64,000 bases of DNA, from the NCBI GenBank assembly GCA_963971425.1, contig OZ020519.1, positions 7,952,028-8,016,027 of the forward strand, in the 5' to 3' direction. Below, piece after piece: positions 11,724 to 61,635 of the stretch (position 1 is its first letter; each line of letters opens with the position of its first letter). The translations under genes were made by a program, and so were the position numbers. Below the pieces are notes generated by a model. That model saw only the letters and a list, made by a program, of their open reading frames with translations. It had not been told where the DNA came from and ran no database searches. The stretch is from Bryoerythrophyllum caledonicum. Lineage: Eukaryota > Streptophyta > Bryopsida > Pottiales > Pottiaceae.

Positions 11724-17438
<5,715 letters not shown>

Positions 17439-27389: not shown

Positions 27390-27975
27390 GTCGTCGTGGT
27401 TGCGTCACATTGAACATTTTCACCAGGGTAGTGCTGCTATGATATGGCTAGTTATCGTAGAACCATAATTACCCCACTTAGGTCTATGATACTATTTTAT
27501 TGTGTTGGCAACGGAATGGCCCAAACTCCGCATCAAGTTAATCAATTGTTGTCACCCTTAATTTGAATTTCAAAAACAAAGTTAGTCGTGACTATAGCAT
27601 TTCTATTACTTGCTTCTGCAGTCAGAATCATTCCACTTTTCTCGATTTATCATTTTCCGTAAGTGAATAACGACAACACCAGGGAATAATTAACTTCAAG
27701 CAGACTTAGTGGCTTAGTAGATACAACTAGTGCATATCTATTTGTAAATTGCTGACTTAGATCATGACCTCTAGATTTGAATCTGAACTTTGTCGTTTTC
27801 GTGTGAACATACAGCATACACTCGTTTATCACTAAATTGAATGATAAACTCCTCCTTAGTAGGATCAACCTATTAATTTCTTTCCTTAATTTGAAAGCTT
27901 TTCCATAATGATTGCGGCGCCGTCAGGGAGCGTGCATGGGCATCTGACATAAAGCGTTAAATATTTTCGCCGATT
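27390..27975. other. Intergenic, no gene seen
   Basis: Divergent spacer between the ParB/methylase gene (minus) and the MULE-like transposase gene (plus). It may hold both promoters; no specific motif was recognised. Confidence 0.4.
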
Positions 27976-30900
27976 ATGAGCACGATGCGTTTCCATAATT
28001 GGACGTCTCCACTGAGATGTTCAGGCAAGTTGTTGATTTCTTCAATATCCAACCGTCATCATAGACAGCAGGCATTCCATATCCTATGTTGTGGAGAGCT
28101 CTTGACTATGGCGTCACTGACATCTCAGTATGGTGGTGTTCCGCTTGTCGTGTCCGTTGGCGAGAATGGCACTGTTAATGTCCCGGAGGCAGTCCTCAGT
28201 AGTCGCTTCGGGTATAGACTTGGAACCGTCCATGTTGAGCAAGAGGTGTTTCATAGCTCGGGAATATTAGAACATTCTATGTACCAAGTGAAAGATCGAG
28301 ACGATTTAGGCTTTCTGTGGAACCTGTGTCGTGGTTCTTTTAAAGTATATGGTGTGAGGGATACTCAAACGTTTGCTAATGCGTCGTGTGCCGTGATGAT
28401 CCCTCCTATTGATTCTGGTGATATGATACTCGTGCCCGATTTGGGCACACGGTCTAACCCAAGCGTGCAGCTTCTAAGTGACACGGACGAGGACGTCTCT
28501 CATGTGAATTTAGGGGAATCATCGTACACCTTTAAGTCACAAGACTCTATCTGTCCCGATACGTCTATCCATATCCCAAGTAGGTCGCACATGTCTCCGT
28601 CTCTTTCCTTAGGAAAACCACTTGTCCATCCAAAATCTAAAAGTATCCGCAGTATGATTCCTTATGTTCGCAGGACCTGTATTAGAAAAGGATCCCGTTC
28701 TGAGTTGACACAAGTGGATTTCGACAGCATTCAGGTTTCACGTGTGAAGTATCTGCCTCCGTCTTACAACGGGGACGTGTTGTTTAAGTTGCCCCCACTT
28801 CCAGAAGGCATACCAACTCAGTTTGGAGGAGGACTGGATGGTATGAGCAAGCAACACGATGGTCACACATGGTGCAAGACAATGACTACGAATATCATGA
28901 ATGATTTTGGCCTCACATATCGGAAGTCATCTTGTACTGGCCATCTTCAATGTCCTAACCTTCATTGTGACTATAAGTGCAGGAATGAAGGTCGCACTAA
29001 TCAAACGGAGTGGAGTGGACTCGCCATTTCCCCCTGGCCTATGAATGGCGCTACGCACCCTAAATCAACCTTGGCTTGTAAGGTTTGTCAAACCCCGCCT
29101 ATTTGTCTAGCTCTCTGTGATGCTTGTATTTATTATGTGACGTGTACCGATGCGGAGCGCACCCGACTTGCCATTCATCTTGGTATTCACCAACATCCCA
29201 TCTCAAATGGAGTTGACCAAACCGCAATGGACGTGATGCATGAGTGCGTTGCGAAGGAAGTCGAGTGCACACCCAACGCCACTAATTCTGCTATCATTAT
29301 GGCAGCCAGTAAGAATTACCTATCCGATTACTTGATCCGTCCCGGATCGGGATCATGAAACCTTGAAGGAGCATCCATGGATGCTGTCTTGGATCAGTTC
29401 CAGACTCTATCATCCCCAAACATTCGAAATTTGGTATCGACATGCAAGCGCTTCTACAATGGTGGGAAGGGTGTCATGGACAACATCATGGAGCTAAAGG
29501 AGTCATCCAAGTTTGTCTTCATCCACGAGAACAAGTTCCCGGGCCAATCTAAAGGTAAGGTATTTGTATTTAAAATGTCTGTTGATCGTCCGGGTAGCGG
29601 TGTTGATCTTGTTCGGCGGATGCAACCGGGTGGAGACCTTCAAGATTGTTGGTTGATGTTTGATCACGTTAAGCGGGTTAAAGACTGGACTACCATGGCA
29701 TGCCATGTATACGACAGTAAGTATTGTAAAGTTATGACGATAGCTATGTGTGATATGCAATCGGAGGATGCTCAAGCACAACAGTTGTTTTGGGAGAACC
29801 TGAATGATACGATGAGCCATCACGGAGTGGAGAATACAAACTTTAAAGGGTTCATGGCTGATAGTGCCGGAGCGAATTGGCACGCTGTCCGGCGAGTGTA
29901 TGGCAATGGCGACAAAGACGTCCCGATCGAAAACAAAGAACGGACTTGTTTATTCCATTGGACCAAGTGCCTTCAACGAGCCACCACAAAGAGCATTCTA
30001 CCAGCATTCCAAGATCACTACATTGCACTTTGCAAGATTTGGAAGAACGCGAGATCACAAGAAGAGGCTGAAGCACAGTACAACGTCATTCGTGGATGGT
30101 GGATTTCATCTGGGGCTACTACCGAAAGCGGGCGTCGGGCGCTAGAAGATTGGATGGCTTTTTGGCATTTCCGATATAGACAATGGGGTGGAGCAATGCA
30201 ACTAGTAAGTTCTCGGATTTTTTGTTTATAAATATTCAGATTGTTGAAAAGTTATATGTAAATGATGTACTGACCATTGCTGTATGATATCAGGACCTTA
30301 CACAGGACGAGCGAGCTGACATGCGATCATGTAATCTTGCGGAGATAGTCCACAACTGCTGGCTTCAACAGTCCGGAAATACCATGACATGTTTATATGC
30401 GGCTACCGTGGATGACCTAATTCGGGCTTTCATGCAAATCACTTTGTACCGGGCATGGATCAATGGAGGGACCTCCGGAAAAGGTCCAGACAAAGGTACA
30501 CTTCGATTAAGATCTGCCCAACGTTCTGGTGATCCAAAACTCATTGCAGAAGCTGTGCGGAGTTTTCCGGGGGCAGATGATCTCTTGACAAAGACGGGCG
30601 GGCTCGTAGGAGCGGAGATTTTTGGGTCTACCAAACGGAAACTTGACATGCCACCGGGGTCCAGCAACGACTCCCACCGCTCCGATACGGTGAACTATTC
30701 GATTCCACGAGATGGCAGAAGGGTGACTCGAGCGCGGATCGAAGAGGCCCTAAATGAACAAGGTTCCGGGGTCCGTCACTCAACGGCAGTATTGGAATCG
30801 GAGGTTGATCCATCAAAGTGGCACGTTGGTCGACTTCCGAAGACCTCCCACCGAAAGTGCCAGGCATTGCAGGCTCACATTGGTCAGAGATGTGATGCTA

Positions 30901-31334
30901 GAGTTGGACGTGGGAGTCAGGGAACACCTGCCCCAACATATATTGGCAAGAAGAAGGAATTCAGGTCGCCCCGAAACACTACTGTCGAGTTCTGGTTTTG
31001 TGCTGATGATATTAACCGATGCGTGATGGGTTCGAAGAAACCGTTTGTAGTGGATTGGCCATCAGTCCCAATGACATGGCCAGTGAAGCTTGGCACGAAC
31101 CTTACGATGCAAGAAGTTTTATCGTTAGAAGAAGCATGTTTTCAGTTAGAGCAACGTGGTGCTTTGTCGCCTCGGAGACAATTCCAAGTAACTTTGAACA
31201 TGCCTCTTCCGCGAACAAACTTCCCGCTTCCAGATAATCCGGACTCATACCATACTTTCCGCAACGGCTACCAGATTCGTCGAAGTTCAGATGTGCCTTC
31301 CGTTGAGCACCGAAACAAGTATGCTGTATTTAAC
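27976..31334 (+). pseudogene. MULE-like transposase, N-terminal and catalytic part
   Basis: Two exons (to 30204, then from 30294; GT-AG intron of 89 bp) in one phase. A Cys-rich zinc-binding region lies near 28900-29200 (CPNLHCDYKC, CKVCQTPPICLALCDAC). The MULE/FAR1-type catalytic region follows, with LMFDHVKRVKDWTTMACHVY as the first-Asp region, FKGFMADSAGANWHAVRRVYG as the second-Asp region and ERTCLFHWTKCLQ. The start may be 27976 or the internal Met at 28108. One TGA at 29356-29358 interrupts the frame, with the same frame before and after, so a CGA-to-TGA change is likely. The protein runs into the inverted-repeat end of a 16-kb unit at about 31332 and its zinc-finger end reappears at 47776. 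An interrupted, probably inactive transposase. Confidence 0.75.
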
Positions 31335-31364
31335 TATTTCTGGACTTTGCAAAGTCCAGAAATA
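31335..31364. repeat. Perfect 30-bp palindrome at the left end of the 16-kb unit
   Basis: TATTTCTGGACTTTG is followed at once by its exact reverse complement, with no spacer. It overlaps the left inverted-repeat end. The matching right end carries the same TCCAGAA core twice (about 47741-47748 and 47760-47768) but not as a closed palindrome. Confidence 0.85.
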
Positions 31365-31394
31365 AGGAAGAAGGATTTTAGTCTCGTAAAATAG

Positions 31395-31884
31395 TCGCAC
31401 CAAAGAATATGAAAGGGATACCCAGTTAATTTATTTTAATCATTCAGACGGATATCTCCGGATGGTTTCAGTGATACATGACTAATCGAATATAGTGATA
31501 AAACAAGCGTGAAATTTTGTTCGTCGTGATCGACAAAATGATAACAACTTTCAAGCTAACACGTTTATAAAACAACCATGTAATATGGTGTACTGTACAT
31601 TTCTGTGGTAATATCGTGTAGAAGATGAGTACAGTGCATTTCAGAGCTTGAAGCATTGACATGCAAGGAATGCCGTTCAGACATCCGGAGATATCCGGTC
31701 GAAAGCAAAGTACTAAAAATATAATTGCTCGGCTGTTCAAAAACGACGATGCTACTCTGGAATGAAGTCTCTTTACAAAAGCGTTTGATACAAGACCAAA
31801 TGTAGGAAAAAGCAGTGACTGGTCTGAGCAAAATTCGTGGATCTAACAACAAATTCTATCCTTGCACAACCTCTCTGAAGAGCT
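31395..31884. other. Left terminal non-coding region of the 16-kb unit
   Basis: No gene. It contains GATATC-type palindromes at about 31449 and 31685, mirroring the variants near the right end (47378, 47550, 47711). Confidence 0.5.
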
Positions 31885-32322
31885 CTAAAGATCCTTCCAG
31901 TGAGCCGGTGCGTACATGTCCGAATCGACATCAGACCCTGTGTCACACCCAGTTTGAAATGGGCTGCAGCCGCCATCCGAAGAAGATTCCTCCTCGTCTT
32001 CATACCAGGGGTCGTCCTCCACCTCTTCTTCAACCGAAGCAACTCTATCAAGGGTCTCTTCCACATCGGAGTCGATCTGCTTCTCGTCCTCCGCATCACA
32101 GTCGATGCCGTAGTCCTCCTCTTGAACAAACTTGCTCTCAGCGTCATCCTCCAATTCGTCTAGAACACGCCGATCGGAACAGATCGCCCTTCTGTACTCG
32201 ACTTGTAAGAAAAGCAGTCTTCCCTTCTCCGAACCCTGAGCCTCGCTCACCATCCTTCGTGAAACTCTCCTATCTACCGAATCAGAGACATCCCTCTCCC
32301 TCTTTCTACTTCCGAAAGCCAT
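31885..32322 (-). CDS. Small acidic protein of unknown function
   Basis: Single open frame of about 145 residues starting at the Met of MAFGSRKRERDVSDSVDRRV. The N-terminus is basic (SRKRER, DRRVSRR), which could be a nuclear signal. The C-terminal two thirds are strongly acidic (DELEDDAESKFVQEEDYG, EEEVEDDPWYEDEEESSSDG). No family recognised. No stop or frameshift, unlike most of its neighbours. It lies convergent to the transposase gene, just inside the left end of the 16-kb unit. The composition could suit a nuclear partner or transactivator, but that is a guess. Confidence 0.45.
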   Translation of the reverse strand: MAFGSRKRERDVSDSVDRRVSRRMVSEAQGSEKGRLLFLQVEYRRAICSDRRVLDELEDDAESKFVQEEDYGIDCDAEDEKQIDSDVEETLDRVASVEEEVEDDPWYEDEEESSSDGGCSPFQTGCDTGSDVDSDMYAPAHWKDL

Positions 32323-33620
32323 CTCCTCTCTCTCCACCGTGGCTATGGCCTAATAAGACTTATGGTTGAAAGACAAAACATATGGATTATTGCAGCCCTG
32401 AACCGTCTCTTATACAATCCTCCCCACCAACCCACTAACTACACTTCTCGAGCGTAGGTACATTGATTTAAGTCGCCATAACACCGAGACTGCTGGACTT
32501 AATGGCAGATGCCAAATTCATGAACGAACAACATGGTAGGCCACGCGTCAAACGTCCTGTGATAATGAGATGTGAGAAGTACAATCTCCGCCGCCAACCA
32601 TCAGCATCACTTCAATCAAATGAAGGAACTCGGATGACTGATATTAACTGTGTAATTGACCGCCCACTTTCATATTAGCAGTGGCATGTCATAAATCAAA
32701 GAAAGAACCAGCCAGGAGAATGCCAAAAAGGTCTCTGTCATTTTGAAACAAGTTCCATTGATAGAGAAATTGCAGTATCGTAGTCACAGAAGATCTCCGG
32801 ATATGATTCAATAATATTCAGAACACCTAGGGAAGCTCAAAATTGGGAAATGTGGACCCCATTGTTAAGAATGGTAGATGTGAATCTCGTATCCGGAGAT
32901 CTCCGGCTAGATCTCACCCACTTGAACAAGGCAATAAATGAACATTCGTCCGACCACGAAATTTGTCTTCCATACCCGGAGATCTCCGGTAAGCGTCCTA
33001 TGAGATATGCGGGTCTGAAAATATTCCGGTGGAATAAACCAGTCAATAATAATTGTGTCACTACTCAATGTATCCTAATAACAGTGAATGGAAGAGCGCA
33101 AATCCGGTTCTCTTCACGAAAAGTGGCGAGAGCTGATAGGAGGGATGTCGAACTCTGGACCAGAAAATAATAGTCTTCACAGCCGGAGATCTCCGGTGCT
33201 CCTCCGTGAGGTCGAAGAGACTCGACGAGATTTTTCAGAAACAGAATTTCACAGAACAGAATTCTAGGTATTGGGAATCATCACCGAATCAAGGGTCAGC
33301 GGCATTCGCTTTCTCTAAGTTCACAAGCGCTGCTTCCTTCATTTTACGTGGAATGGATCTCGTCAGTTGGTTAACTTTGCTAGACCAAGTCGCAAACAAA
33401 ACAGAACTCACATGACACCATACAGGCTTCTCTTGGTCCGGAACCCAAGTGGCTTCCCAACAGTCCTGGTACTTCCGCTTCAGATTCTACTGCTTGTTAT
33501 CAGGCTCCCAATACTTAACGAGGAATTTTCCGTGGTTGACATTACCCTCATCCCTGACGACGTCCGAAATTGCTCTACCCTGCCAGACAGGATAGATGTC
33601 TGGATCACTAGGTCTAACTA
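32323..33620. other. Non-coding region with palindrome cluster
   Basis: No supported gene. Perfect palindromes start at 32893, 32976 and 33183, with a half copy at 32791. Spacings are 83 and 207 bp. It lies 3' of the DUF7869-like gene. Confidence 0.5.
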
Positions 33621-33624
33621 AAAT

Positions 33625-36600
33625 TCAGGACCCGAGACGAATATCACGCCAAGGATTAAATGTGGACTTTGGGGCTTCATTGGCGGGTCCACAATAAGGC
33701 TCGAGAACCTCATCTTCGGGAGTGACATCCAATGGTTGTGGAAGCGATCCTAGCGGATTTTCACCTCCCTCATGAGGGCCTCTCCAATCATGGGCTGGCC
33801 AGAATCCCTCTTCGAGCTCGGAGGGCGTCTGTGGAAGTGGCTTGTCAAGCTCGTCGATGACGTCCCTCCAGTACTGCAGGTATGGGCGGATGGAGTCTGC
33901 GTACCCTGCGCACTTTGACATTCCGGACGCCCAGTAGTCCACGTACTTCCGAAGCCCCGTCTTAATGAAGTTTTTGTTCTCCGTCGCTTTTTTGGCCTTG
34001 TCTCTGGCAACATCTTGGTTTCCGACCGGGTTCTGCTCCTCATTATCCCATATGGGCTTGAAAGGGACGGGCTTCGGAGAGCCTGTTGGAAGCATGGGAC
34101 GTCCGCTGTCATCTACCTTCCAGAGTTTTATCGGCTCTCTGTTCATCGGCAACCACTCTGCGTCAACGGCAGACTTCTTGAACTTCATGACCGGAACACC
34201 ATCATTGTCAACGTAGAACTTGAAAAGATGCATATCACTAAGTCCCACCAGACGTGCCGCCCCACTGCATAAAAAGCCATCGACGTAAGATTTAAAGTCG
34301 GCCACCTCTTGGATAACTTCCGGCATGAAGGCTAGTTTCTGTGACTTCATGAATGCCTTCATCAAATCCGCTAGAATATATGTACTGCTTTTCTTCAGTT
34401 CTTTCGATAGATGACTAAAGTAAGCATCAATATCTTCATGCGTATGTCCGACAACCAAGAAGCCAACCTGTATCTCCTTGAAAACGCCTCGAGCAGTTAG
34501 CAGTGATAAGAATGCCATCAAGTACTGGTTCTTGTTGTCCTTCGCTGAGTTGTCGAGCTGTAGAAACAATTTCGGTGGCAACGGTTTCGGTCCCTTAAAA
34601 GCACTGGGCTCCACGGGCTCTAAAGCGTCGACACACCTGCTCTTTCCCCTCATGAGCGCCGTGAACATCGAGTTTGGAGGAGGGTGCTCGAACAGCGCGC
34701 GCGTCTCATGTAATGGTGCTCCCTCAAGCCGCCTAAAAAGTTTTGCCAGAGAGGATATGGTGGCGTTTGAATCTCCCGGCCATAAAGCAGGAGCATAGTG
34801 AGCATACGCTCCGTCGACATGACCGTGAGCCACCATTCCGGTGACATTCATGGGAAGCTGTCCGAGACCAGATGTCGCCTTAGTAGTCCTCTACATGCGT
34901 GGAAGGGCCGTCTTCGCAGTGTCCATCTTGTCGTGAATGACACAGAGAAAGGTCAGCGGCTTCGCCTTCGACTCCTCCCTCCATGTCGCGTAAAGCTTCC
35001 GGCATAATTGTTGGTGATTCAAGTGAGCTTGCCTGTTGCTATAGAAGAGCTCGTATGCGGGCGTACCCTTAGGAGTTGTCAGTAAGAACTGATTGAACTC
35101 ATCGCAAGTACTGCATTTTGCGAAGGTGCTTCCAGACGGCTTAATAGCAACATTCCCGAAGAATTCCTTCCTTACCCTACTAACTGTGGACTGGCTTACT
35201 GGAGGGAGACCGTACTACCGTAGGAGTCGTTTGTCTGCAAAATGAAAAATTAACCTAGTGAGAGGAAAAATTTAGAAGTACAATCCAACAGACGGTACGA
35301 AGTACAGAGTAAATCAATTGAAGGTCAATGCAGAACAACGATGACCCAGCCGGAGATCTCCGGTTATGATACTTGGACATCGGTCGACGGAGCAAGGAGA
35401 ATACAAATCCATTGCAATATGCGGGGACTGATAACGTACATCATTGACGCTGGCTCGAATTTGCTTCCAGTTGTTTCCCGCAGGAAGATACTTGAGAGTG
35501 TCAATCCGACCATTCCCGACACTCCGCATTTGGTGAGGCATTTGATCTGCGTTGTCATTAATAATCGACGTCATTGAGCCCATCGCCTGTATAGTGGCAA
35601 GCCGTGGGCGCTTGATGCCCTTGTTACCGTGAGTTGCATTAATGATTCCTCTACTGAAATGTGCGATGTACGTGTGAAACGTGGACTTCCGAATTCCATG
35701 GATCGTGTACCATGCAACGGAGCAAACCTCCGTTCCCAAGAGCGTGACGTACTTTCTCTTCCGGTCCCCATCAATGGAGTGGAACTGCCCACCTACCGAG
35801 ATCGCATACTCCTTTCTATCTTCAAAGGATTTGTCATAGAATTTCTGTCTAACAGAAAGAGTCTGGGATTGTTGAAAATACTGGCAGCATCGTTTGGGAC
35901 AGCACCTTTCCGAGCTGACTTTGCGAATTTCGTCGTCGGTAGTCCTCTTGGTGTACAAGGATTCCTTCTTGTTAAGGTCCTGCTGTCGGGAAATGAAGCG
36001 GTAAGGCTCCTTCGCACGACCCCCCAAATGAGCGCCAGAATCTGGTTGTAAGGGCAGGGATGCAAAATGATCAATTGTGCATTTCAAAGAACGACCGGAA
36101 GGAAAACAACATTCAAGAATGGGCCACGATTCATGACTCATAATTCTCTCCGTGTCTCCCACAAAAACATCAAGGACAGTTACACCAATATTTTCTTCTC
36201 CCAAACATCCACTTCGGAAATGGTCTGCTGGGAAAGCGGCCATGATTCTCCCAGAGCAGAGCACCAACCCATCTCCGTCCAACCGCTGCACTTCAAGTCC
36301 AATCCATCGCTCTCGTGGTACGAATGGGGACTCGTCGGACCGGAGATCTCCGGTTGGAATCATGACATCCGCCCTTCTCCATAAAACGGTCCGCCGGAGT
36401 GTGTAAATAAGTGAATCGTATCCGCGTTGCAAGGGAATGAGTGGTAATTCTTCTGCCGCGGGGCATGTGGCCGTTGGTCTAAGTAATACGAACTCACTAG
36501 ATCCGACTGGTATGTCAATTCCAAGCCATTGACCCATGGGGTGAACCTCAACAATGGACGCTTCTCCAATTTCGCCTGAACCTGGCCTCATAAGGTTCAC

Positions 36601-36768
36601 GGACATTCCTGACCAGAGGTCCTCCGATCTTCCTGTAGACTCCTGGGATGGATCATCTTCTTCCGTGTAATTCACATGTCCAGAATCGGAGCACTGAGCT
36701 GCGACCATGGCAAGGTCTTCCGAGTCACTCTCCCACCAATCTGAGTCAGACATAGTCCCGTGCTGCAT
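33625..36768 (-). pseudogene. DUF7869-like protein with two in-frame TAG codons
   Basis: Minus-strand gene of at least two exons: about 36768-35400 and 35234-33625. Exon 1 begins MQHGTMSDSDWW and includes a Cys-rich start of the conserved part (RCCPKRCCQYF) and a helical DNA-binding-like stretch. Exon 2 has FAKCSTCDEFNQFL, VIHDKMDTAKTALPRM, then LQLDNSAKDNKNQYLMAFLS and VGFLVVGHTHEDIDAYFS. The last two are hallmarks, as I recall, of the widespread eukaryotic DUF7869 family, often linked with mobile DNA; an RNase H-like fold is possible but not shown. TAG at 34891-34893 and 35215-35217 interrupt one continuous frame. The exon 1/2 joint is not settled (a GTACGT donor near 35440 gives the wrong phase). 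It is the best candidate inside the unit for a transposase-like enzyme. Confidence 0.6.
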
Positions 36769-36866
36769 TGGTGGAATCTCGGTTGGTGGCTGATGTCCTG
36801 AATGAGAAATTGTGTGTATGTAGAGTCGATTTGGATGACCAACCTCAATATCCTCGTCAGGGATAG

Positions 36867-37076
36867 CCGGAGATCTCCGGCAGAGTGGATAATGATCGAC
36901 AACGACGACTTCTTGTTTGATTTTGAGAGAGAACAAAACAGAAGTAGCCGGAGATCTCCGGGAATCCTGCTTTCGATGATTCTGACAGCCACTGGAATCA
37001 ATGGGTGAAACCGTGGTTACCGGGCGAGATTGGCAGAATCCAGAATAGCACGGCATGAACAGTCGGAGATCTCCGG
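36867..37076. promoter_or_regulatory. Palindrome cluster upstream of the DUF7869-like gene
   Basis: Three CCGGAGATCTCCGG-type sites start at 36867, 36948 and 37063, within 310 bp upstream of the start codon near 36768. Spacings are 81 and 115 bp. The position fits an operator or enhancer array for a dimeric DNA-binding protein. Confidence 0.45.
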
Positions 37077-37104
37077 TTGAGTTTTTTGGCCTTGATCGAA
37101 TCAA

Positions 37105-40100
37105 TAGCCGTACGGAATATTCGCGGGTATGGCGGTGTGATACAGTTGCATAACCTGGTTAACAGTTCGGATTCACACGCCAAGAAATTACGTCATCTAT
37201 ATACTCGAGTCGAATATATTTACTGCTTCAGGGCTATGACTGTATCTTCGGAGACGAATTAGTTTAAAAATCTCTACTCGAGAGCTCGCGATCGACTCAG
37301 AGGACAGAATGCAACACAATCATCACCAATCCTCACAGACAGATAGCGAATACGGAATTATACGAGGGAACATACTTAACATTCCTGGAATAATGTCGAT
37401 TCGTTTCCCTACAGTTATCTAGCACGATGTCGCGCAAGCGAACACTGTCACTGACTCGCTCAGCTCCCATAGTATCTCAAACATCCTGAGCAAAAAAGGA
37501 GGAGAGCTGAGTTGAAGGATACTCTTATCCACCTTTCCATCACCTCGTGGAGGGAAAATTCAGGCGCTCAAATTTGAAACGAATCTTGGGCATGCATGCT
37601 CCTTCAAACTAACTGCTGTACACCATCATGATTGTGCGCATTCTTCGACGTGCCCACGACCGAGGCCACATTCCACTCATGATAATGAAAGGCTCGTACT
37701 CATGGGATGACCGTATTGTAAGGATACCATCTAGTTCCTAGAGTGCTGCAAATTTGAAAACGGATGATGAAGTATGCCCCATGATGTATCTTTGAATATA
37801 CTAGGGCCGTATCACGTCTTAGACTAAATCACAGTAAAATGTAATCATACAGGACTTCTCGTACTCACCTTTGTTAAGTAAATTATACCCTACCCAAGGA
37901 AAGGAGACGGCCCTCAGCTGCCTACTAGTATTGTTCATCAGGCAATACAAGACTCAAGTAGAACATCGGCGTTCGTTACCAATTAGAATAATCTCCAATA
38001 TTGCCTAGTTCGACAGAAGTTATATGGATGCTTGAGAAGAAACGTGCACAAATAACTGAGCAGATGCTTTTAGAAGTACAGCAACCCGGTCCTATGAATT
38101 CGGGTACAGCTTCCGTGTTCAGGCTGGATTGTGCATCAAGGTTTTAGGGTTTAGGGTTTAGGGTTTAGGGTTTAGGGTTCATGGTTTTCACGGTGTAGGG
38201 TTTAGGGTTCACGGTTTCTAGTTCACGGTTTTAGGGTTTAGGGTTAAGGATTCAGGGTTCACGGTTCACCGTGGAGGGGTCTGAGTTCATGAAGGTTGAG
38301 GGCTTATATCACCTATAAATGTATAAATTAAAAATATTTTATAACTATGAACTATAACCTTAAGTTTATCCATAATCATAACTTTTTTTAAAAACCTGGA
38401 TACTATAGAGTGTAAGGAAATTTAGCGAGAATTGAACAATAACTATTTATTTTGATACATTATAATTTAGTTAGAGAGAGAATAAAGAAGAGAAGGAGGG
38501 TAATGGATTTAATTTTAGAGTAGACTAGCTGTTGGCGCTTGCTTTGCAATGCATTAGCCCAACCATTTTTATGTATTTATAATATTAAAAAGTATTAAAA
38601 AGTAAAAGGTGGAATGGTTCACTATATTGTTGACAACGCGGTTGATTGTAGCGTTTTTGTAGTTCACTGCATGGTTGACTACGTGATAGTTCACTCCGTG
38701 GTTTACTGCGCAAATTATGATTTTAGTAGTATGACTAGGAGTTGGCTCTTGGTTTGCAACACATTAAATCAACCATTTTCATGTAGTTTTTATATCACAA
38801 AGTATTTAAGAAAAAAGGTAACAACAATCTACATAAAATATGAATATATCTTTGAAACCTATGCATTAATTTGAATAATGTAATAGAATGGGATAGAAAA
38901 AAAAATACTATTACAATAGTTCAATATTATTAACTATGGATGGAGATTGAGATAAAATAGGGAGAGTAAAACTAAAATAAATAAATAAACAAGTATGAGG
39001 GAGAGTTAGGGAGGGAGGGAGAGACTTGAGGGATTTATTTTTAGAGTAGTGTATATTTTTAGAATATGTAATAAGGGGAATCTAAAAAGAAAATCAAATG
39101 TAAAAAAGAGATGGGGAGGGAGAGTAAGGGCGAGGAAGAGTAAAATAGGGAGAGTAAGGGATTCTTTTAGAGTAGTAAGTTAATTATAGAATGTGTAAGT
39201 ATTGAAATCACGAGGAGTCTAAAAAATATTAGAATCAAGATTAAAAAAGAGATGGAGATGGAGAAGGAGGGGAGAGTAGAACAAAAATAAGAAAAACAAG
39301 TGAGGGAAAGAAGGGAGGGAGAGTAACGGAAAGGGAGATTCAGCTTTTCCACTAATGTCGTTTTAAATTCAAGTATAATTATTACTCTAATACCCGGTGA
39401 ACCCGAGTATCTATTATAGTCATATCTAATACCCATGAAACCGGGTATCAATACGTCTTCTCACGCATGCTCACGACATTGACAATGTCATGATTGTGAA
39501 ATGGACACGTTGTACATGTACGTCATTTCAGCTGATTTTTAACTTCACCCACTGTCATCATGAGCCGTCACACCCTTGAGCCGTCCAGCTTGTCCTCTTT
39601 GGGTTTTGAGAACTCCAAGAATGAATCATTTCTTGATTTTTTTGGCTTTTGTCTTCGTAATGTCGAAGGTAGTGAGCGGAAGTGGCGGGAGGGGTTTTCT
39701 TTCTTGGTTTGCGGAGTCGGCGTCGACGCATTAGGTTAGTTTTGTATGCGCTGTGAGAGGCCGTTGGTGTGCGAGGTGAGTGTTGATTTATGTGAAGGAC
39801 ATTGAGCGTGCCGTGGAGAGGTTGTTAACTGGATATGGACTGAAGGTCAGAGAGCAGGACTGAAAGAGAGCGAATGCGTTAGGAAGAAATTTGAAGAGCG
39901 CCTAGGTTCAGTAGCCAAGAGTGAACGACGTTGCGGTTGAGGGTGGCGTCAACACGAACGACCACGACGTACGAGTGCGCCGATTCGGCAACTGAAGAGG
40001 TATGTAAAGTCTCAAAAATGGCTTTCAGTGAAATTTCAGTTGAATTTACACAGGACTTCATAGAATCGTCACTGGAGCAGGTGTAGGGTTCGGTAAGCTC

Positions 40101-40990
40101 GAGAGAGTCGAATAGTACTGATGTTGATAATCGTTTGAGCGAAATAGAAGGGTTTAGGGTTTAGGGTTCTAGTTTTCTGTGCATTCAGTTTCGAAGGGCC
40201 GGAATTGAGCAATTTATGCAGTGTTGAAATTTGTTCCACCGAATTCCTGTATGTCAGAACTGGACCATACATTCTAGGACATTTGAGAGATTGTATAGTT
40301 TGTCGTTCTGAGTTGTTGAATGCTTATGTACTGCAGAGTTGTGTATACGCTTTAATCCAGAGCAGTTACTGGAGGAGATTGCGAAATGGCGACTACAGCA
40401 GGGACGTGGAATGAGAGTGCGTGGGATGGAAACCGGTAAGTATACACAATTGAACTGTTTATGCTCAGTCCGGGCGACCAGGTGGGGTTCCTTTTTTTGA
40501 GTGAGTTCCGAATTAGTTCTAATATTTCGGAGTGGACGAACACTTGAATGATTTTGAAAAACCTCAAAAAATGCGTACTAGAATTCCGATGCCTGTTTGG
40601 CTATAGTCGATTGGTTTTTTGTTGTCCCGTGAACATATTTGTATATCTATTCATGAATATGCGAATGATTTTGGAATTCCATGAATGTTTGAATGTGTTG
40701 TTCCTCACTGAGTCTGTCGAGTCTGGTTCGATTCAATGTATATAGTTTAATCCATGTAGAGTCGTCAAATTTGGCGTTCCATCGAAACATTAGCGGATTC
40801 TTCTTCTAGTGTGTAAGGTCGAGTTATAACAGAATTGTGTGAGCTCATTTGATACATATATTTATGTTCTCAATTATATAACTTGGTATTTAAGTATGTC
40901 AAACTTCAAGAGTTATAAGTCAAACCTCTCTGTAAATGAATGTAAATATTCGAGTCCTGATATGATCCGATTAGTGCTTCGGAGTGCCGT
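37105..40990. other. Gene-poor, palindrome-free interior of the 16-kb unit
   Basis: About 3.9 kb with no supported gene and no copy of the palindrome. It holds telomere-like repeats (38141-38262 and 40147-40170), a purine-rich stretch (38980-39320, many GGGAGAGTAA-like units) and AT-rich sequence. It may be a later insertion into the unit or a genuine spacer between its two divergent gene groups. Confidence 0.45.
38141..38262 (+). repeat. Interstitial telomeric repeat tract
   Basis: Five head-to-tail TTTAGGG units followed by interrupted TTTAGGG and TTCACGG variants. The plant-type telomere unit supports a plant source. A second short run (TTTAGGGTTTAGGG) is at about 40151 and another at about 51212. 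Confidence 0.85.
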
Positions 40991-41001
40991 ACGTGCTTCT
41001 G

Positions 41002-41276
41002 CCGGAGATCTCCGGCTGAAAATACGGAGTTCGAGTAATCAGCCGGAGATCTCCGGATGATGTAGCAATCAGATGAATATGTTAACCCTATACAGGAGTT
41101 AGTTATTCTCGAAAGTAGTCGGAGATCTCCGGACGTATCAAAACAGTGGAAATTCGCGTTGAGGGGTCATTAACCGGAGATCTCCGGTTCAGGTCAGAAA
41201 TAGACCCGTCAGAGCAGCCAGGATTCGTTCCTTGTCGGATGCACTCGACTTCCCCAAATCAGCCGGAGATCTCCGG
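41002..41276. promoter_or_regulatory. Five-copy palindrome array upstream of the ParB-like gene
   Basis: CCGGAGATCTCCGG-type sites start at 41002, 41043, 41119 (one mismatch), 41174 and 41263, spaced 41, 76, 55 and 89 bp. It is the densest cluster in the window and lies just before the first coding exon (about 41438) of the gene with a ParB-like segment. The layout resembles bacterial parS arrays beside parB, but the functional link is inference. Confidence 0.5.
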
Positions 41277-41437
41277 TTACTGTCCCCTGCTGGCACTGTG
41301 ATACAGATTTGGAAGCACGATTCATGGTTTCAATATCTAGGAACTTGTCAAGTGATTTTGTTTCGGATTCTTGTTATTGACCAGACAATTGCATCGATTC
41401 TAAACTACCTGCTTGTTCTTTCAAAATCATCTTGCAG

Positions 41438-44400
41438 GGATTCGTGGACAACCACACTTCCGACTGAATGTCGACCCGGTAAACTTGGGGCATTTGTAGA
41501 GTATTGGCTCCCTGAGTTTGTCTACAAAGGGATACACAATGTCGGCTACGTATACAATTGCCGAAAGAGCATAACCCAGTGGGGCATCAAGCTCATTAAA
41601 ACCCCTGACGGTGCCTGGGAATTCGTCCCTCAGCTTCGGATTGGCAAACGGGGTCACCCCGACATTGGTCTCCAGGTTCTCGAGTTGCAGGGACTTGATG
41701 ACGAGGTCAGTCTTGTCATCGTCCAGGAGAACGTGGACTCCTCCACCGAGCCACATATATACGGCTTGATCCTAGAATCATCTAAGATTTCGGATGAGAT
41801 GGTGGAGACCTGCCAGAGTGAGAACTTTTTATTTGCCCCTCCAACGGGTGATACGTGGTATCCGGAGTACGTGAATGAGTAGTGGAAGTGGATGGCTGAA
41901 GCACAAGAGAAGTCCCGAATGCCCTTTCCAGACGCAACTCCCAATCTGTCTCTGACACCAGCATCGACCTTGGCAAGAAAACGCAAGACCACCTTGAAGA
42001 CTTCGACCCCAGGATCTTCATCGCGGGCGGAGAAGGGGAAGAAAGCGAAGGCCGATGAGCCAGGCCTCGCGATCGAAAGGTGCCTAACTTCACACAGGCT
42101 GACCTCACAAAAATGAAGCGGACTGAAGTGGAAGCAATTGGCAAGGTACTCGACGACGCGTTCAAAAACGTTTACATACACAATAATAAGCCTTTGACAG
42201 TAGAAGACCCTGACACGAAGAAGGATGTCGTGAAGCTCGTTCATTTCGATAAGCTGCACCGGGCCCCCCCTGGAGGATTAGTATACAGGGGCATCCAGAA
42301 AGAACGGCTTGAAGGAATTATCAACGCAGTTCGCTCGTCTTCGAAGGCCACGACACCTGAGATTCACATTCGAGTCCTGCCACTGAAGAAGAAACCTGAA
42401 GGAAGTAAGGTAGAGTTTTTGGCGACCAAGCCGACGAAGGAGGACTGCCTGAGGGACTCGACACACTTTTACATTATCGGAGGTCAGCATACTGTGGCGG
42501 CGCACAAGGTTCTGTCACACGAATTGCCAGCAACGTGGACGCTTGAAGAGATCTCCCACTTCTCTATCATCCCGGTTTGGACAAAACCGGACCCCAAAGA
42601 CATGATCCTGCTACAGCTCTCGCGCGCTCTTAACCAAGATCTGACGGGTTTGCGGAAGGAGCAGAGTTTCACTGAGCAGCTGCAGACATGCAGAGTGAAG
42701 TGGTTTGAGTTCGGTAAACCAGCCCCCCAACTGTATGGTCGTCCTCAATCTGACGCATTCTCGGTAAATATACATTCTCAACCTGAATTTTTTTTTATTC
42801 CGTGGCTGTGCTCTATCCTCACAGCAACCAAACCAATCATCCGGAGATCTCCGGCTGCTTACACCCTGTAACTGTTTTCATTGCAGACGTTCCAACGGCA
42901 AGTGGTGCCAACGGTTTTTACACACCTCGGTAAAACAGACCCCAAAGACGCGAAGGTCCCACTTCTATTCGAGATGGATGATGCGGTGGTCCAGAAGTGG
43001 ATCCGAATCGACAGGCTGTTCGTCGCTGGAGACTTACCAGACTCCAACGGGAAGACGGGGGACCCAGCTAAGCTGAAGCGGAAACCTCTGGTGCAGAACG
43101 ACTTCAAGCCTCTTTACAAAATGCGCGCTGAAGACCTAGACTACCTCGCGGATTTAGTGCTCGAGAAGAAGGTCTGTGTGAAGTCCTCCAAAGCGGCAAA
43201 CAAAGGTACTATGAAAGGGCAGGCGGAGACTCTCGAAAACGCGGCGAACAGAGAGAAGAGAGTCCGTGCAATGAAGAATGAACTGATGCTTAAATACAAG
43301 TCGCACCCCCTTCCCTCGAAGGCTGCTGACTTCGTCCCATACACAAAGGAGCAGTGGGACGCATTTGCCGAAGAGAGGAATATTGGAAGGGTCCAGCTCG
43401 AGTCCTGGGTCGACGCCGCTAATCACTCTGCCAAGGGTAAAGCTCGGCTTGAGGGTCGACTGAAGGCGATAAACAAGGATACCGACCCCACTCCAGACTT
43501 CCTCGTGTCCATTTGGAGTCAACACATCATTGAAGATGCTGCCGAGGCCACACCCACGGATGATACGTCCCTGTTCGACTCCAAATACACCTGCAGGGTT
43601 ATGCCTGACAGAGGGGGCGAGATCGCCGAAGTACTTATCATGCCGGACATTCAGCAGTGGCGTAACGTCACTGACCCTCACTTTTACTTCTTTTTCCTTT
43701 ACAGCGTTAAAGACGACATATGCCGTGCACAGGTGCTAGATGTGTTTGACTTCAGAACCATTTTCGACCATCTCGAAGTGGACACAAAGGACGGGCGGAC
43801 GAGGGTCAGATCACCGTCGGTTCTTATCACTGACGTCGCAGGATTCGTTGAATTAAAGAGGTACATCAGTCTTCGGCAGAGAGAGTTCAGAGGCAAGGTA
43901 AAATTGTGGGCAACGCATGTCGTCTACTACTTCCCCCACCCTGGTGATGGATTTCCGGTTCCAGTAATTGGGGTCGAGGAGACAGTATACTGCATATTCC
44001 TGTATGAATACGATTCAAGCGAGACGCCTGCTCAGTCATTCAAGAGGCTCTTCAAAGGCCACCCCGAAAGAATGCCGGCCTTCTTTTCAGCCGCTCAACA
44101 TAAAGAAACCATCCAGCGCTGGAAGCAAACCGGTGTCCCATAGCTGAGGATCTCGGTCCTGGATTCGCTGTTCACGGGATACATCAGAGAGGGTATGGTG
44201 GTCGTCAATGTTCATGGAGGACCACATATTACATACCTCGGCTTGGTAAGCAAGACATCCTTCCCAAGCAATCCAATGTCTAAGATTTCCGGTCCGCATA
44301 CAGTTATATGAATTGGATATCGCCGTCCTAATTTTTTTTTGGTTTGCAGACTCACGACGCGCGGGTCCTCGAGATTGTGAACAGCGAAGATGCCAAAGTA

Positions 44401-45438
44401 AATGCCGAATCCTACGCAGAACAAATATTCAAATTCCACTTGAATATCTTAGCTGACGTTACCGACGCCGATCCTGAGGAGTTACTGGAGACTGACATCA
44501 CTGGGTCGACCCAAGGCGATGGTGTTCAAACACGGGCTATGTCGAGGATGAATTACACCGGCGAGGTATAACGCCTACGGATACTACCCGACCCGGAGAT
44601 CTCCGGATGTTTATTCCATTCGGATGCCCTCCATTCTTTTGGACTCGTCTTTATCATTGCCATGTTTATTTTTAGTTCCCCCGGTAGACTCGGACAACTT
44701 TAACCGGAGATCTCCGGGTGTATGATACCGTTTTATTTTGTATTGCGTCTTAATGTATTCCACACTGACTTCGTCAATGTGACGCAGACGACTGATGCCA
44801 CGATGCTTGATGTTGATGTGCGGAATGAACCAAGTTCATCAGCGGTTCCCAATTTTAGACTGGATTCCTTGGCTACAGCCGCTCGGATCATCGGTGTGGG
44901 CACCCCAATCGACCCATTGCAGGTAAACGTTGATGAACCACATCCTGCTGTCAGGCGTGCCTCGCCTAGTTCAACAAGCGACTCTACTCTGGACGGTAGA
45001 CGGCGTCCCTCTCAAATGGAAACCAGTTCGCATTCCGATAGGCAACGTTCTCCTCCGCCAGATCTGGACGATGACACGGCAATGTCCGATTGCCTGGAGT
45101 TCGACCACACCCACAGAGCACCCGGAGATCTCCCGCTGGACAACCCTTCCACGACGCCTCCTGAAGTGGAGGTTGTGTCCAAGACTACCGAGGACCTGAC
45201 TTTGCGTGACACTGATCACACGATGGATGAGGCATCGGCGCAACAAACATTGCGTGAATTACAGGTTATGAGCCCTCCGCGCAGCCCTCCACGGAGCCAC
45301 GGGCAGCTGGCTCAGAAAGAGAAGAAGAAGGCAATCGCGAAGAATCCTATGCCGAAAGTTCCTCCTCCTCCGCCTACAGTTCGGACAAGGGCCCAGAAAG
45401 ATAAGGTGAACAGTTACTTGTCCATCAAACCTTCTTGA
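41438..45438 (+). pseudogene. Multi-exon gene with a ParB-like (GGQH) segment
   Basis: Open blocks joined by good splice sites: 41438-42078, 42080-42764, 42887-44245, 44350-44565 and 44788-45438. Block 2 has LVYRGIQKERLEGIINAVRS then HFYIIGGQHTVAAHKVLSHE, resembling the ParB/Srx or DGQHR-type core, though with GGQH in place of GxRR. Block 3 (DVFDFRTIFDHLEVDTKDG, VKLWATHVVYYFPHPGDGF) is not recognised. Block 5 is Ser/Pro-rich and ends in a basic stretch (QKEKKKAIAKNPMPKVPPPP), probably disordered. Damage: TAG at 41880-41882 and 44141-44143 with the frame open on both sides, and a one-base frameshift near 42078. Introns carry palindromes (42841; 44593 and 44704). Block 5 contains a degraded copy (45122). 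Function unknown; a DNA-binding role is inferred. Confidence 0.5.
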
Positions 45439-45757
45439 TTGTTCTCTAGACAGTGCACTCTCTGCAGACCATGTTCTTACCACTACATTACTGGTATTCA
45501 GGTGTCGGCTGGATCAACACAGTCGAAGGATGTCGGTGGCAGAAGCCTCGCACAGACTGCTGAAGTCGCTGGTGTAGCTCAGACTTCTAGGGATACTACA
45601 CCTACTGTCCCAGGTGCCTAATATGGACATTCATACTTACGTGCCATCATCTATATAGTGCTCATTCTTTCATCCAGCATTTCTGGGTTCTGAGTGCGGA
45701 ACACTTTTATATATATCTTTGCAATTTCTCTAAGTTGTACAAGTTCCTCATCTCAGC

Positions 45758-46456
45758 CGACGTACTCGTATTTTGGGTTCACGTCTGAAGAAGTTTACGA
45801 CGATCGTCCGAGAGCCTCCAATCGAGGATCAGGTAACACAACAACGGGTTTATCATGTCGTGTTTGACTTAAATGGAGTTCTTGTGCACAGGGGGGAATT
45901 TAAACAGGGACAACCGAGAGACATCAAAGTAAGGCCGGGTTCCACTGAAATCCTGAACTTTGTGGGAGAGAAGGCTACTGTCTCATTCTGGAGCAGTGTA
46001 CTGGAAAAGAATATTGTGGATATCATCAAGGAGTTGCGCAAGAAAGGTGCTACCATTCCGGAAGGCGCCAGAATCCTGACACAGGCCGATTGCACAAAAA
46101 CATCATATATGCTTCCATCTCAGCCAAAGAAGCCAATTTTCCTAAAGGACCTGACAGTTTATAATAGCAAAGCGTCGCCCACATCTCCTAAGGATGTCTT
46201 GCTTGTGGACGATACCCCACTAAAGAACATCCTTAACGATCCCTTCAGCGCAGTTCATCCGCCATCATGGACTGGGAATACGGGTGAAGCCTGGTTGACC
46301 ACCATGTTTCTCCCATGGCTCTCCGGACTACTAGCGTCAAATGAGGATGTTCCCGACTTTGTTAGACGGAATCAATTGAAGTTTGCCAGTGATCCAGTAG
46401 ACAAAAATTCCACTCAGGCTCGCTCCGTGGTGATGGGCATAATTTCGGCGCCTTAG
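45758..46456 (+). CDS. FCP1/NIF-type HAD phosphatase-like protein
   Basis: One exon of about 230 codons, following an AG acceptor at about 45757 and possibly continuing a 5' exon (45503-45610). A basic start (RRTRILGSRLKKF) precedes an FCP1-homology domain: VYHVVFDLNGVLVHRG (motif I), VRPGSTEILNF, VSFWSSVLEKNIVDIIKELR, ILTQADCTKTSY, KKPIFLKDL, VLLVDDTPLKNILND (motif IV Asp pair) and PPSWTG. Catalytic FCP1 enzymes have DxD in motif I; here it is DLN, so the acid/base Asp is Asn and activity is doubtful. Many plant relatives with DLNG are, from memory, uncharacterised. Frame intact. It lies inside the 16-kb unit, so it is probable cargo; a role in modulating RNA polymerase II CTD or chromatin is only a guess. 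Confidence 0.65.
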   Translation, partial: RRTRILGSRLKKFTTIVREPPIEDQVTQQRVYHVVFDLNGVLVHRGEFKQGQPRDIKVRPGSTEILNFVGEKATVSFWSSVLEKNIVDIIKELRKKGATIPEGARILTQADCTKTSYMLPSQPKKPIFLKDLTVYNSKASPTSPKDVLLVDDTPLKNILNDPFSAVHPPSWTGNTGEAWLTTMFLPWLSGLLASNEDVPDFVRRNQLKFASDPVDKNSTQARSVVMGIISAP

Positions 46457-46809
46457 AACAATGAAATATACTGGATAGTATTAACTCTATGCTTTGTAAA
46501 TGTTTCGTCATGAATGTCTGTCGGATTTTGACCTTTCAATTTTGAAGACAAATGTTCTTGTCAGAAACGTTATTTGTTGAGGTCCTTCATTTTATTTGTT
46601 ATTGTTGGTGTCTCGCCCCCAAACTTCACCCTTAATATCTATGAACTCTATTGAGTATTCTCCTGACCATTTCCACTGCAGAACGTTGGTCTGGGAGGGG
46701 CACCCGGAGATCTCCGGTCCAGGATGTGACTTCAGTTCCTCCTACCATATTTTCTCGTCTTTTCAATGTTCAATTTCTAATTCTATGGTCGTGCCATCTA
46801 TTTCGCAGG

Positions 46810-47261
46810 TCATAATCATATCTCTCCGTGGTCCTCTCTGCTCGGACGAGGTCCTTGACTCGGCCAAGTCCCGATCCGCGCAGCTGCCTTCCTTTGATGA
46901 CACCGCAGATGTTATTCGAATACTACTGCGGTATTTCAATGTCGGGATCTGGTCTCCTATGCGTCCAGATAGGCTCATGGAGGTGGCCCAAGTGTTATTG
47001 CCCCCAGACATCTTATCAGATATTCTTTTTTGCTATGCCAGCAAACAGACTCGAAGGCCCAGCTATGTTAGGTTTCTCCACATCTTTAAGAAGGCCTCAT
47101 TTAATCCTAGAACAAGGCATTATTTGTGGCCTAAATCTGTTGTTGTTGCAGATCTAGATCCATTCAAGAATCCTAGAAAGGCTATAGTTCACTATCTAAC
47201 ATATGGGAGACACCATACAGGACGGGTAGAGGGCATCTGTAAAGCACTAAAATTAGAATAG
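46810..47261 (+). CDS. Hypothetical protein near the right end of the 16-kb unit
   Basis: Open stretch of about 150 codons after a TTTCGCAG acceptor. It reads VIIISLRGPLCSDEVLDSAK, then DILSDILFCYASKQTRRPSY and ends VEGICKALKLE. The mix of basic residues and hydrophobic helices suggests a folded domain, but no family is recognised. The 5' exon is not identified; the upstream intron-like region contains a palindrome at 46704. It may be the end of the FCP1-like gene's neighbour or a small separate gene. Confidence 0.4.
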
Positions 47262-47759
47262 TTGATTCGATTCTCCATGGATTACACGCGCCTCTTATCA
47301 ACGGCTACCCTTCATATTTTGTATGACACTTTCTTATAATGAAACAGTTTAGTACTGGACTCTTACTCTGATTTCATTCGGAGATATCCGGTTGCATGTT
47401 CTATCAATTGCGAGTAATTTCTGTCCGTATCTCTGTCCCATTTTTTCCTACCACATGTTTCCCAACCACACATTTGTGATGTACAGTATGTCCATTAATT
47501 TCTGTCTTCAGGACTCGGTTCTTCTTCTAGTTTCCACTTTGATTTTCACCCGGAGATATCCGGCTGCATGTTCCGGACTCACGTATTGTCTAAATTCAAA
47601 TTTGGTCGCTCTAGCCATTTCTTCCTTCATAAGTGTCATTGGTGATGCATTTAATGCTTGAAAAGTACTTGAAACTCCTCGGCTTTTACGCTTCACTCTC
47701 ATTTATGAGGCACATCTCCGGATCTTTCTTTTAGTCCTTAGTCCAGAATTCACCTCATA
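47262..47759. other. Right terminal non-coding region of the 16-kb unit
   Basis: No gene. It holds GATATC-type palindromes at 47378 and 47550 and a partial copy at about 47711, then two direct TAGTCCAGAA-type motifs ending at the inverted repeat (47774). Confidence 0.5.
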
Positions 47760-47775
47760 GTCCAGAAATAGTTGA

Positions 47776-48129
47776 ATTGGGCATAAGTGGTCAAGCGCAG
47801 CTCTGATGAAGAATTGCTACGTTACAAATGTCACCGCAATGCCGTATCCGGGATTTGGATGCGTTATCACTCTTCTAACGGAGAAAGAGAAGTCTTATTG
47901 CATAACCTTCACAGACTACCCTGCGTGTACATGTCCAGATTTCCTAAAGATGTCAGTGGAGGCGTTGGGGAAGAAATGGCAATGGAAGTACTGCAAGCAT
48001 GCGTACTACATCCTACGCTATTTATGTAAGATGGACTACAAGGAGGACTTATTCATGCATGCCCCAAGCTACAGCTTTAACGAGGTCATGCGCATTCTAG
48101 AGCTTGCTAATATTGCCGAGCAAGCATGA
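47776..48129 (+). pseudogene. SWIM zinc-finger C-terminal end of the split MULE-like transposase
   Basis: The frame opens directly after the inverted repeat: IGHKWSSAALMKNCYVTNVT, then FTDYPACTCPDFLKM and WKYCKHAYYILRYLC, a CxC...CxH SWIM zinc finger, ending FMHAPSYSFNEVMRILELAN. SWIM fingers sit near the C-terminus of MULE and FAR1-type transposases, and the segment GCYVTDV-ALPS...CTCP is familiar from the same family as the protein at 27976-31334. With no start of its own at the junction it is best read as the severed 3' end of that gene. Confidence 0.7.
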
Positions 48130-55047: not shown

Positions 55048-55628
55048 ATCGACCCTCTAACTCGTTGGATCCACACGTTGGTTGCACAAAAGTTGCGTGT
55101 AAGTGAGCTGCAAAACGACACGACTAGGCGAGACGGAATCAGTAGCAACAAGAAAACTATGTCTGTCGAAGGGGGAGATTTACGACTTGCACCCGAATCT
55201 GCAGACACCCTCTCCAACAACGGAAGAGAACTTCACTACAGCAGGTCCTGACATACAAACCACGTCCAATTCGGGTTGGTAAACCGATGACAACCTCGAC
55301 CTGTAACAAGCAATACTCACTCCAGACTCGCAGAGCACGTGCTACTTCGACCGTCTAACCTATTGTAGAGAAAAGTTGCCGGCCGTCGGTTGAGAACAGG
55401 CCTGGCTGACTGCAAGCCCGGAAGAATACTACTTCACGTTGCCAGACTCCTCACCAGCACCAGGCTCCCAGCCACACACGGCTTACTGCGGGCTGCGGCC
55501 ACTCTGGAAATAACAATTGAACACTTCCCGGCACAAGGTTCATCACCGATCTAGTCTTGCTAGGCTATCGACATCCAAACGGAGGTCGAGTACGATGAAC
55601 TGCCCCTGGAAAAACTAAGCATGGTCAA
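55048..55628. other. Intergenic spacer between kinase and duplicated segment
   Basis: No gene recognised. It should include the promoter of the kinase-like gene (minus) and ends at the left border of duplication copy 2. Confidence 0.4.

Positions 55629-56043: not shown

Positions 56044-61635
<5,592 letters not shown>

Follow-up and report, generated by a model that had tools for sequence, protein, structure and literature searches.

A 16,464-bp element with a DUF7869 gene and a palindrome array in the moss Bryoerythrophyllum caledonicum, probably a multigene terminal-inverted-repeat DNA transposon

VANDAL elements form a group of the MULEs, and in the En/Spm (CACTA) TnpA system a second protein regulates a large element that has short binding sites repeated towards its two ends. 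Sola transposons are described as having a 4-bp target-site duplication, a DDD-type transposase and terminal inverted repeats (TIRs) of 11–1124 bp, with some exceeding 15 kb and with occurrence in the moss Physcomitrella (PMC10741241, in excerpt). In Arabidopsis, VANC21 binds its motif within its own family, in introns and in intergenic and terminal noncoding DNA (PMC5735166, in excerpt), and fungal DNA transposons (KDZ and others) carry TET/JBP, an additional gene with a presumed role against silencing (PMC12730594, in excerpt). Here we analyzed a 64-kb stretch of the B. caledonicum genome (the window; OZ020519.1, 7,952,028-8,016,027) against the genome as a whole (437 Mb, 894 contigs). Small-subunit RuBisCO had 20 matches in this genome, every one on the large contigs C4, C7, C9, C10 and C14, which shows a photosynthetic host, probably of the green lineage, as red-lineage algae encode this gene in the plastid. 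We conclude that the interval 31321-47784 of the window is probably one copy of an autonomous-type multigene TIR DNA transposon family, the window copy itself not being self-sufficient. The family is mobile: its copies have exact common ends, 4-bp duplications at unrelated targets and at least 49 genomic places, and the window copy was inserted precisely.

The limits of the element were set by the homology of the window with two further copies on contig C1, copy A (~1.56-1.58 Mb) and copy B (~3.74-3.76 Mb), which gave 31321-47784 (16,464 bp; 31319 in one BLAST row). The initial annotation of the window had recognized a 15-bp inverted repeat, which is present as AACTATTTCTGGACT at 31332-31346 and AGTCCAGAAATAGTT at 47759-47773, and had taken 31332..47774 as the limits; these were ruled out as element ends by the homology of the copies, which extends 11 bp (left) and 10 bp (right) further outward. 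The sequence AGTCCAGAAATA has four matches in the window at ≤1 mismatch, three of them exact, vs 0.39 expected. No clean target-site duplication had been seen at the old limits; at the corrected ones the window copy has AAGT on both sides, copy A has CCTA and copy B TTGT. The features of the two ends are as follows.

31317..31320, no strand: 4-bp target-site duplication, AAGT, on the left (flank comparison)
31321..31349, + strand: left terminal inverted repeat, imperfect, ~28 bp, starting ATGC (copy comparison)
31335..31364, no strand: perfect 30-bp palindrome, formed by the core of the terminal repeat together with its complement (window sequence)
47756..47784, - strand: right terminal inverted repeat, with the core AGTCCAG directly repeated just inside (copy comparison)
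47785..47788, no strand: 4-bp target-site duplication, AAGT, on the right (flank comparison)

A 4-bp duplication was present in 21/21 copies with both ends found, and 18 distinct sequences were seen among the 21. These copies were the window copy, A, B and 18 of 20 loci whose expected right-end region was fetched, the 20 having been drawn from 38 other copies with a scored left end. The exact duplication was read directly in 13 of these 18 and, in the other five, after allowing for 1, 1, 5, 7, and 7 terminal bases left unaligned by BLAST. Two of the 20 loci were dropped, L063 with its right end outside the fetched stretch (the nearest scored right end would give a 34 kb span) and L064 with a right match of 52 bp only. 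The 30-bp palindrome was found in all 30 left-end loci viewed, with an internal base change in two (L034 and L037), and the terminal core AGTCCAG(AAATA) occurs twice at each end of the element.

A genome search with both ends had been suggested at the outset, and it returned further copies having the same ends. The left 400 bp gave 301 candidates, of which all 40 that were scored matched from base 1 to at least base 398 at 98–100% identity; the right 400 bp gave 283, and 40/40 scored matches ran from base 1 to at least base 393 at 97–100%. A scored right end could be paired with 31 of the 40 scored left ends, 29 of the pairs spanning 16.2-19.4 kb and two spanning 26.2 and 34.2 kb. Counting the 40 left ends (nine without a scored partner) and 9 unpaired right ends gives the minimum of 49 places. 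Leaving gaps aside, identity to the window copy is 98.5% for A and 93.0% for B. The scored copies are near-identical, so that most of them, judged by their sequence, are young.

The element lies within a gene, the two parts of which stand immediately outside the duplicated AAGT.

27961..31320, + strand: 5' portion of the split MULE-like transposase gene, the target, outside the element (open reading frames; weak Transposase_mut match; paralogues)
47789..48129, + strand: 3' part of the same gene, with a SWIM-like pattern (open reading frames; uninterrupted paralogues)

The initial annotation had held that simple excision does not restore the frame exactly; with the corrected limits and one AAGT left in place, a single open frame results. 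The joined protein (296 amino acids, aa) gave 133 matches in the genome from 132 scored candidates. At least 31 of these were empty sites, with query residues 1-296 aligned over exactly 888 bases at 90-97% identity and no stop (96-97% in the ten best); these intact paralogues match the joined flanks codon for codon and take in the end of the 5' part. The insertion is a precise one, into a single member of a repeated MULE-like gene family, and the split gene, itself from a high-copy family, is the insertion target only. As to its identity, a transposase body and a SWIM-finger C-terminus had been placed at the two limits. One gene is indeed split there, and Pfam supports neither label above threshold: Transposase_mut matched below threshold only (E 0.13), no Pfam match to a SWIM domain was found, and the C-x-C ... 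C-x-H pattern resembling SWIM in the C-terminal part was seen by eye. The name MULE-like is thus a reading by eye, without profile support above threshold. Many matches to this MULE-like family are 94-97% identical with open frames, and it may itself be recently active. That the interval is one large mobile unit is supported by its copies, by their 4-bp duplications and by target paralogues that have no interruption; the ends are common to other copies, and the two parts of the target gene are adjacent in intact homologues.

The gene most likely to encode the transposase of the element belongs to the family DUF7869.

33289..36768, - strand: DUF7869 gene, encoding the likely transposase; two main exons, the intron between them containing a palindrome (PF25273, E 8e-46)

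Its start is uncertain, being at 36768 or, by the first ATG of the frame, at 37056. The exons hold three in-frame stops in the window copy, none in copy A and two in copy B, and copy A has an uninterrupted DUF7869 open reading frame of 650 aa; because of its three stops the window copy is not self-sufficient. Genome-wide, 150/150 scored matches passed the family cut-off, many of them in frames of 1066-1087 aa. A first search of proteins found 167 relatives, with the liverwort Riccia sorocarpa as the sole named organism among the 120 listed, and a second search, queried with seven Riccia proteins, returned 298 hits, with Riccia accounting for 112 among the 120 listed. Across 49 aligned proteins (numbering after P0001, columns with at least 15 letters) the conserved residues include D115, D241-N242 and H277-T278-x-E280-D281-x-D283. 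The columns at least 90% conserved among rows with a letter include C54, C57, H114, D115, D241, N242, K245, D246-N249, H277, T278, E280, D281, D283, E323, and D326. Three acidic positions are conserved, and the spacing of 39 between D241 and E280 could be that of a DDE transposase. Against this stands a PDB profile search with no match to DUF7869. In a Pfam scan the DUF7869 proteins matched no named transposase family, and a literature search found no paper naming DUF7869. We regard DUF7869 as the likely transposase of the element, the tie between DUF7869 and the 4-bp duplication coming from one element family.

Among known groups Sola fits, as judged by description: the element shares with it the 4-bp duplication (21/21 copies), a TIR length within the Sola range (~28 bp, imperfect) and large size. 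That the element is a large member of the Sola superfamily, with DUF7869 its transposase under another name, has accordingly to be given an appreciable chance, if clearly below an even one. For it speak the traits described for Sola (4-bp duplication, DDD-type enzyme, repeats of 11-1124 bp, occasional size above 15 kb, presence in Physcomitrella), of which the element shows the 4-bp duplication and repeats of ~28 bp. It is opposed by the lack of a named Pfam transposase family for the DUF7869 proteins and by the multigene content and conserved palindrome array of the element, features that the excerpted account of Sola does not mention (PMC10741241). A survey of literature on large eukaryotic, Sola, liverwort and bryophyte transposons and on ParB in eukaryotic transposons, judged mostly from titles and abstracts, found no description of the element. 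We would describe it as a large TIR transposon with several genes, one that has a real chance of belonging to an unnamed superfamily. Membership of the MULE/VANDAL group would go with a duplication of 7-12 bp, and that of the element is 4 bp.

A second distinguishing trait of the element is a repeated palindrome. The genome holds 2718 occurrences of the 14-mer CCGGAGATCTCCGG on each strand vs 3 for a reversed control, and the 50 genomic places listed all lie within four element copies on contig C1. All 15 exact occurrences in the window lie inside the element, as the initial annotation had reported. A related sequence, CGGAGATATCCG, has 48 matches in the window at ≤2 mismatches vs 3.0 expected; three of these lie outside the element (12202, 30558, and 56522), none being the palindrome itself.

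32893..46717, no strand: array of 18 internal CCGGAGATCTCCGG-type sites, 15 exact and 3 with one change (sequence search)
31449..31460, - strand: subterminal variant site CGGAGATATCCG, outer left (sequence search)
31686..31697, + strand: subterminal variant site CGGAGATATCCG, inner left (sequence search)
47379..47390, + strand: subterminal variant site CGGAGATATCCG, inner right (sequence search)
47551..47562, + strand: subterminal variant site CGGAGATATCCG, outer right (sequence search)

In the array, three sites lie between the DUF7869 gene and a gene for an acidic protein, another three close to where the DUF7869 gene starts, and five ahead of a gene with a ParB-like motif. The DUF7869 and ParB-motif genes each have one in an intron, and two at 44.6-44.7 kb and one at 46.7 kb are near starts of open reading frames. 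Several palindromes touch the open stretch upstream of a first likely start codon, the start itself being unfixed. Beyond the core, flank information is limited to two positions and their mirror images, the half-sites preferring A at -2 (28/36, p 4e-10) and C or T at -3 (31/36). The extended site is thus a 20-bp dyad, YAN-CCGGAGATCTCCGG-NTR, such as a DNA-binding protein acting as a dimer would be expected to have.

Conservation of the sites was assessed in two comparisons. Between the window and copy B, 7/252 site bases differ vs 147/1080 flank bases, a contrast that overstates conservation as only sites intact in the window were taken. Better evidence comes from L076 (1368-1831, contig C15), the single copy representing a second, diverged subfamily, which has six exact 14-mers before a ParB-motif gene of the 518-aa class. 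Five of these align with the five of the window, with 69/70 bases the same vs 257/436 (59%) at other aligned positions, a figure lowered by poor alignment towards the end; the better aligned noncoding BLAST blocks are 73-79% identical, and the sixth 14-mer has no window counterpart. The variant end sites are intact at 3/4 positions in copy A and 4/4 in copy B. Besides the overstated comparison, several observations count against a conserved array of noncoding binding sites: two palindromes lie well inside open reading frames (36340 and 45122), the inner left CGGAGATATCCG site is not intact in copy A, copy B has lost one of the 18 array sites and changed another, and CCGG is kept elsewhere in the element at 37/45 vs 32/36 in the site arms, which is no clear difference.

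Two other accounts of these repeats were tried and rejected. One made the palindromes by-products of tandem duplication; identity over 20 flanking bases was 0.275 vs 0.252 at random sites (200-draw maximum 0.267), and the excess is located at positions -3 and -2. Scattered single CGGAGATATCCG sites were considered as small relatives of the element; L016, L018, L019, and L020 have one site each without element ends, in surroundings that by eye (no family search was made) are retrotransposon or other coding DNA. Separately, a 259-bp tandem array on contig C1 (L015 628-1849, 42.6-43.8 kb) has a unit carrying CGGATATCTCCG, the terminal variant site of the element.

The palindromes might be transposase-binding sites only, like CACTA subterminal repeats, with no separate regulator. 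The variant CGGAGATATCCG near both element ends speaks for this. We nevertheless think it unlikely, since the CCGGAGATCTCCGG-type sites, 18 in number, all lie in the interior, over a range of 13.8 kb, and those near the ends belong to another variant in the window, A and B alike. With En/Spm the element has in common a large size, repeated short sites near both ends and, on the reading proposed below, a second regulating protein. En/Spm differs in its termini, which are CACTA/G with a 3-bp duplication (PMC10741241, in excerpt), where the element has ATGC with 4 bp and sites that are mostly internal. The VANDAL/VANC system is similar in that a short element-specific motif likewise occupies the noncoding DNA of one family (PMC5735166, in excerpt), a likeness seen here in site distribution alone. 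It differs in that VANC motifs grow by tandem repeats, whereas the sites of the element are dispersed palindromes whose flanks agree within 3 bp only, and no VANC homologue was identified.

Besides the DUF7869 gene the element holds the following, given with the ratio of non-synonymous to synonymous change (dN/dS) between the window copy and copy B.

31885..32322, - strand: small acidic-protein gene (open reading frame; dN/dS 0.42)
41400..44143, + strand: gene with ParB-like motif (GGQHTVAAHK...LNQD); a palindrome lies in the intron between its two exons (open reading frames)
44722..45438, + strand: low-complexity open reading frame, possibly the 5' exon of the phosphatase-like gene (open reading frame; dN/dS 0.42)
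45734..46456, + strand: part of a NIF/FCP1-like phosphatase gene (PF03031, E 4.2e-13; dN/dS 0.49)
46581..47261, + strand: gene near the right end, stop-to-stop frame, start uncertain (open reading frame kept in window, A and B; dN/dS 0.36)

The gene labels proposed at first held in two cases, DUF7869 (8e-46) and FCP1-like, which Pfam gives as NIF (4e-13; 49.7 bits vs a cut-off of 21.8). The label ParB-like fared less well. It goes back to the motif GGQHTVAAHK...LNQD, which resembles one of ParB but which none of the profile searches made supports: the protein matched no Pfam family at E ≤10 and nothing in NCBIfam or PHROGs at E ≤1, and PDB profiles of the region gave no related chain, only two weak Neurexin matches (E ~0.6). 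These results tell against a likeness to ParB. Only 3 relatives at E ≤0.001 were found in the protein database (8000 candidates scored), and in the genome 101/101 scored matches lie mostly in frames of ~590 or 518 aa. The gene is interrupted in the window copy and its exact ends are uncertain. The element has a protein with a ParB-like motif together with repeated palindromes, as in bacterial ParB-parS, from which it differs in that its protein fails the ParB profile tests; no ParA partner was sought beyond the Pfam scans. The acidic protein, the low-complexity open reading frame and the last gene had no Pfam match. The element also differs from the fungal TET/JBP transposons, with no TET/JBP family in the open reading frames scanned and another host lineage and other genes.

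The carried genes had been called cargo, and this should be dropped: they are under purifying selection between copies, and one is probably the transposase of the element itself. Between the window copy and B, dN/dS was 0.21 and 0.15 for the DUF7869 exons and 0.23, 0.22, and 0.23 for three parts of the ParB-motif gene. It is below 0.5 for every gene in this comparison, which makes these look like element genes rather than passengers. All these values are rough, some stretches including the natural stop codon and all three copies having stops in some genes. Between A and B the range was 0.16-0.52; between the window and A, with few differences, it was 0.14-0.95, with two genes undefined for want of synonymous change. 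Evidence on the other side is that the window copy is broken and that A and B too have stops in some genes, that the phosphatase part reaches 0.52 between A and B, and that the last gene reaches 0.95 between the window and A, a value resting on four changes.

The remaining explanations can be taken briefly. An endogenous virus or Polinton-like element would also be large and multigene, and is very improbable: no polymerase, integrase or capsid family was found in the element open reading frames scanned, and the duplication is 4 bp, not the 6 bp of Polinton-like elements. A viral source was ruled out because the DUF7869 profile gave 71 pattern matches in IMG/VR with none confirmed. A Starship-type giant cargo transposon moved by a tyrosine recombinase would account for large size and several genes, and is more improbable still, given that no recombinase domain, and so no captain, was found in the element open reading frames scanned with Pfam, and given that the terminal repeats are short, the duplications 4 bp long and the places at least 49 in number. 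Movement of the interval as captured host cargo of the split MULE-like element, suggested by its situation inside that gene, is for practical purposes ruled out, since the inner ends are common to the copies, the short flanks that were read vary from one copy to another with none showing a constant MULE-like flank, and the interval is absent from at least 31 copies of the split gene.

For the TIR transposon that we favor, the following mechanism can be proposed. The DUF7869 protein would be a DDE/RNase-H-type transposase that recognizes the terminal core AGTCCAG(AAATA), and, because of the ends, the duplications and the conserved acids, it would be expected to move the element by cut-and-paste with a 4-bp stagger at insertion. 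Dispersed, conserved and dyad-symmetric sites suggest a sequence-specific binding protein, most simply one encoded by the element; a dimer of it would bind YAN-CCGGAGATCTCCGG-NTR before genes and in introns, and the variant near the ends. The ParB-motif protein would be the first candidate, with the acidic and last proteins also possible. Such binding may switch on the element's own genes or keep host silencing off, as VANC does on VANDAL; we prefer a self-specific activator or anti-silencer of this kind because the distribution of VANC21 sites is close to that in the element. One might guess that the NIF/FCP1-like phosphatase helps by acting on host transcription. A bolder version would have DUF7869 found an unnamed transposase superfamily and a ParB-like protein load onto the ~18 palindromes of each copy, keeping chromatin open (or clustering or partitioning copies), as a plant VANC counterpart of different fold; taken whole, this is a speculation that we consider rather doubtful.

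Some further features of the window were noted. Inside the element, 38136-38290 is a run of TTTAGGG-like units resembling plant-type telomere repeats. A 6.4-kb stretch with ABC-transporter domains occurs twice in direct orientation (11324-17756 and 55625-61947; 98.3-98.7% identical, ~44 kb apart), the duplicates flanking the split gene and the element on either side. Tandem-like self-similarity with a shift of ~270 bp (82-90% identical) was seen at 24347-25590, and Copia-type gag/pol open reading frames lie on the minus strand at 2503-4335. Rfam gave 0 matches in the 64-kb window.

With these results DUF7869, a family abundant in the genome of this moss and in Riccia sorocarpa, gains a probable role as a transposase. 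How large transposons escape from silencing can be put to a natural test with this palindrome, which diverged subfamilies retain at corresponding places. If a protein of the element binds it, this would be an independent second answer to the question posed by VANC, that of opening only one's own copies.

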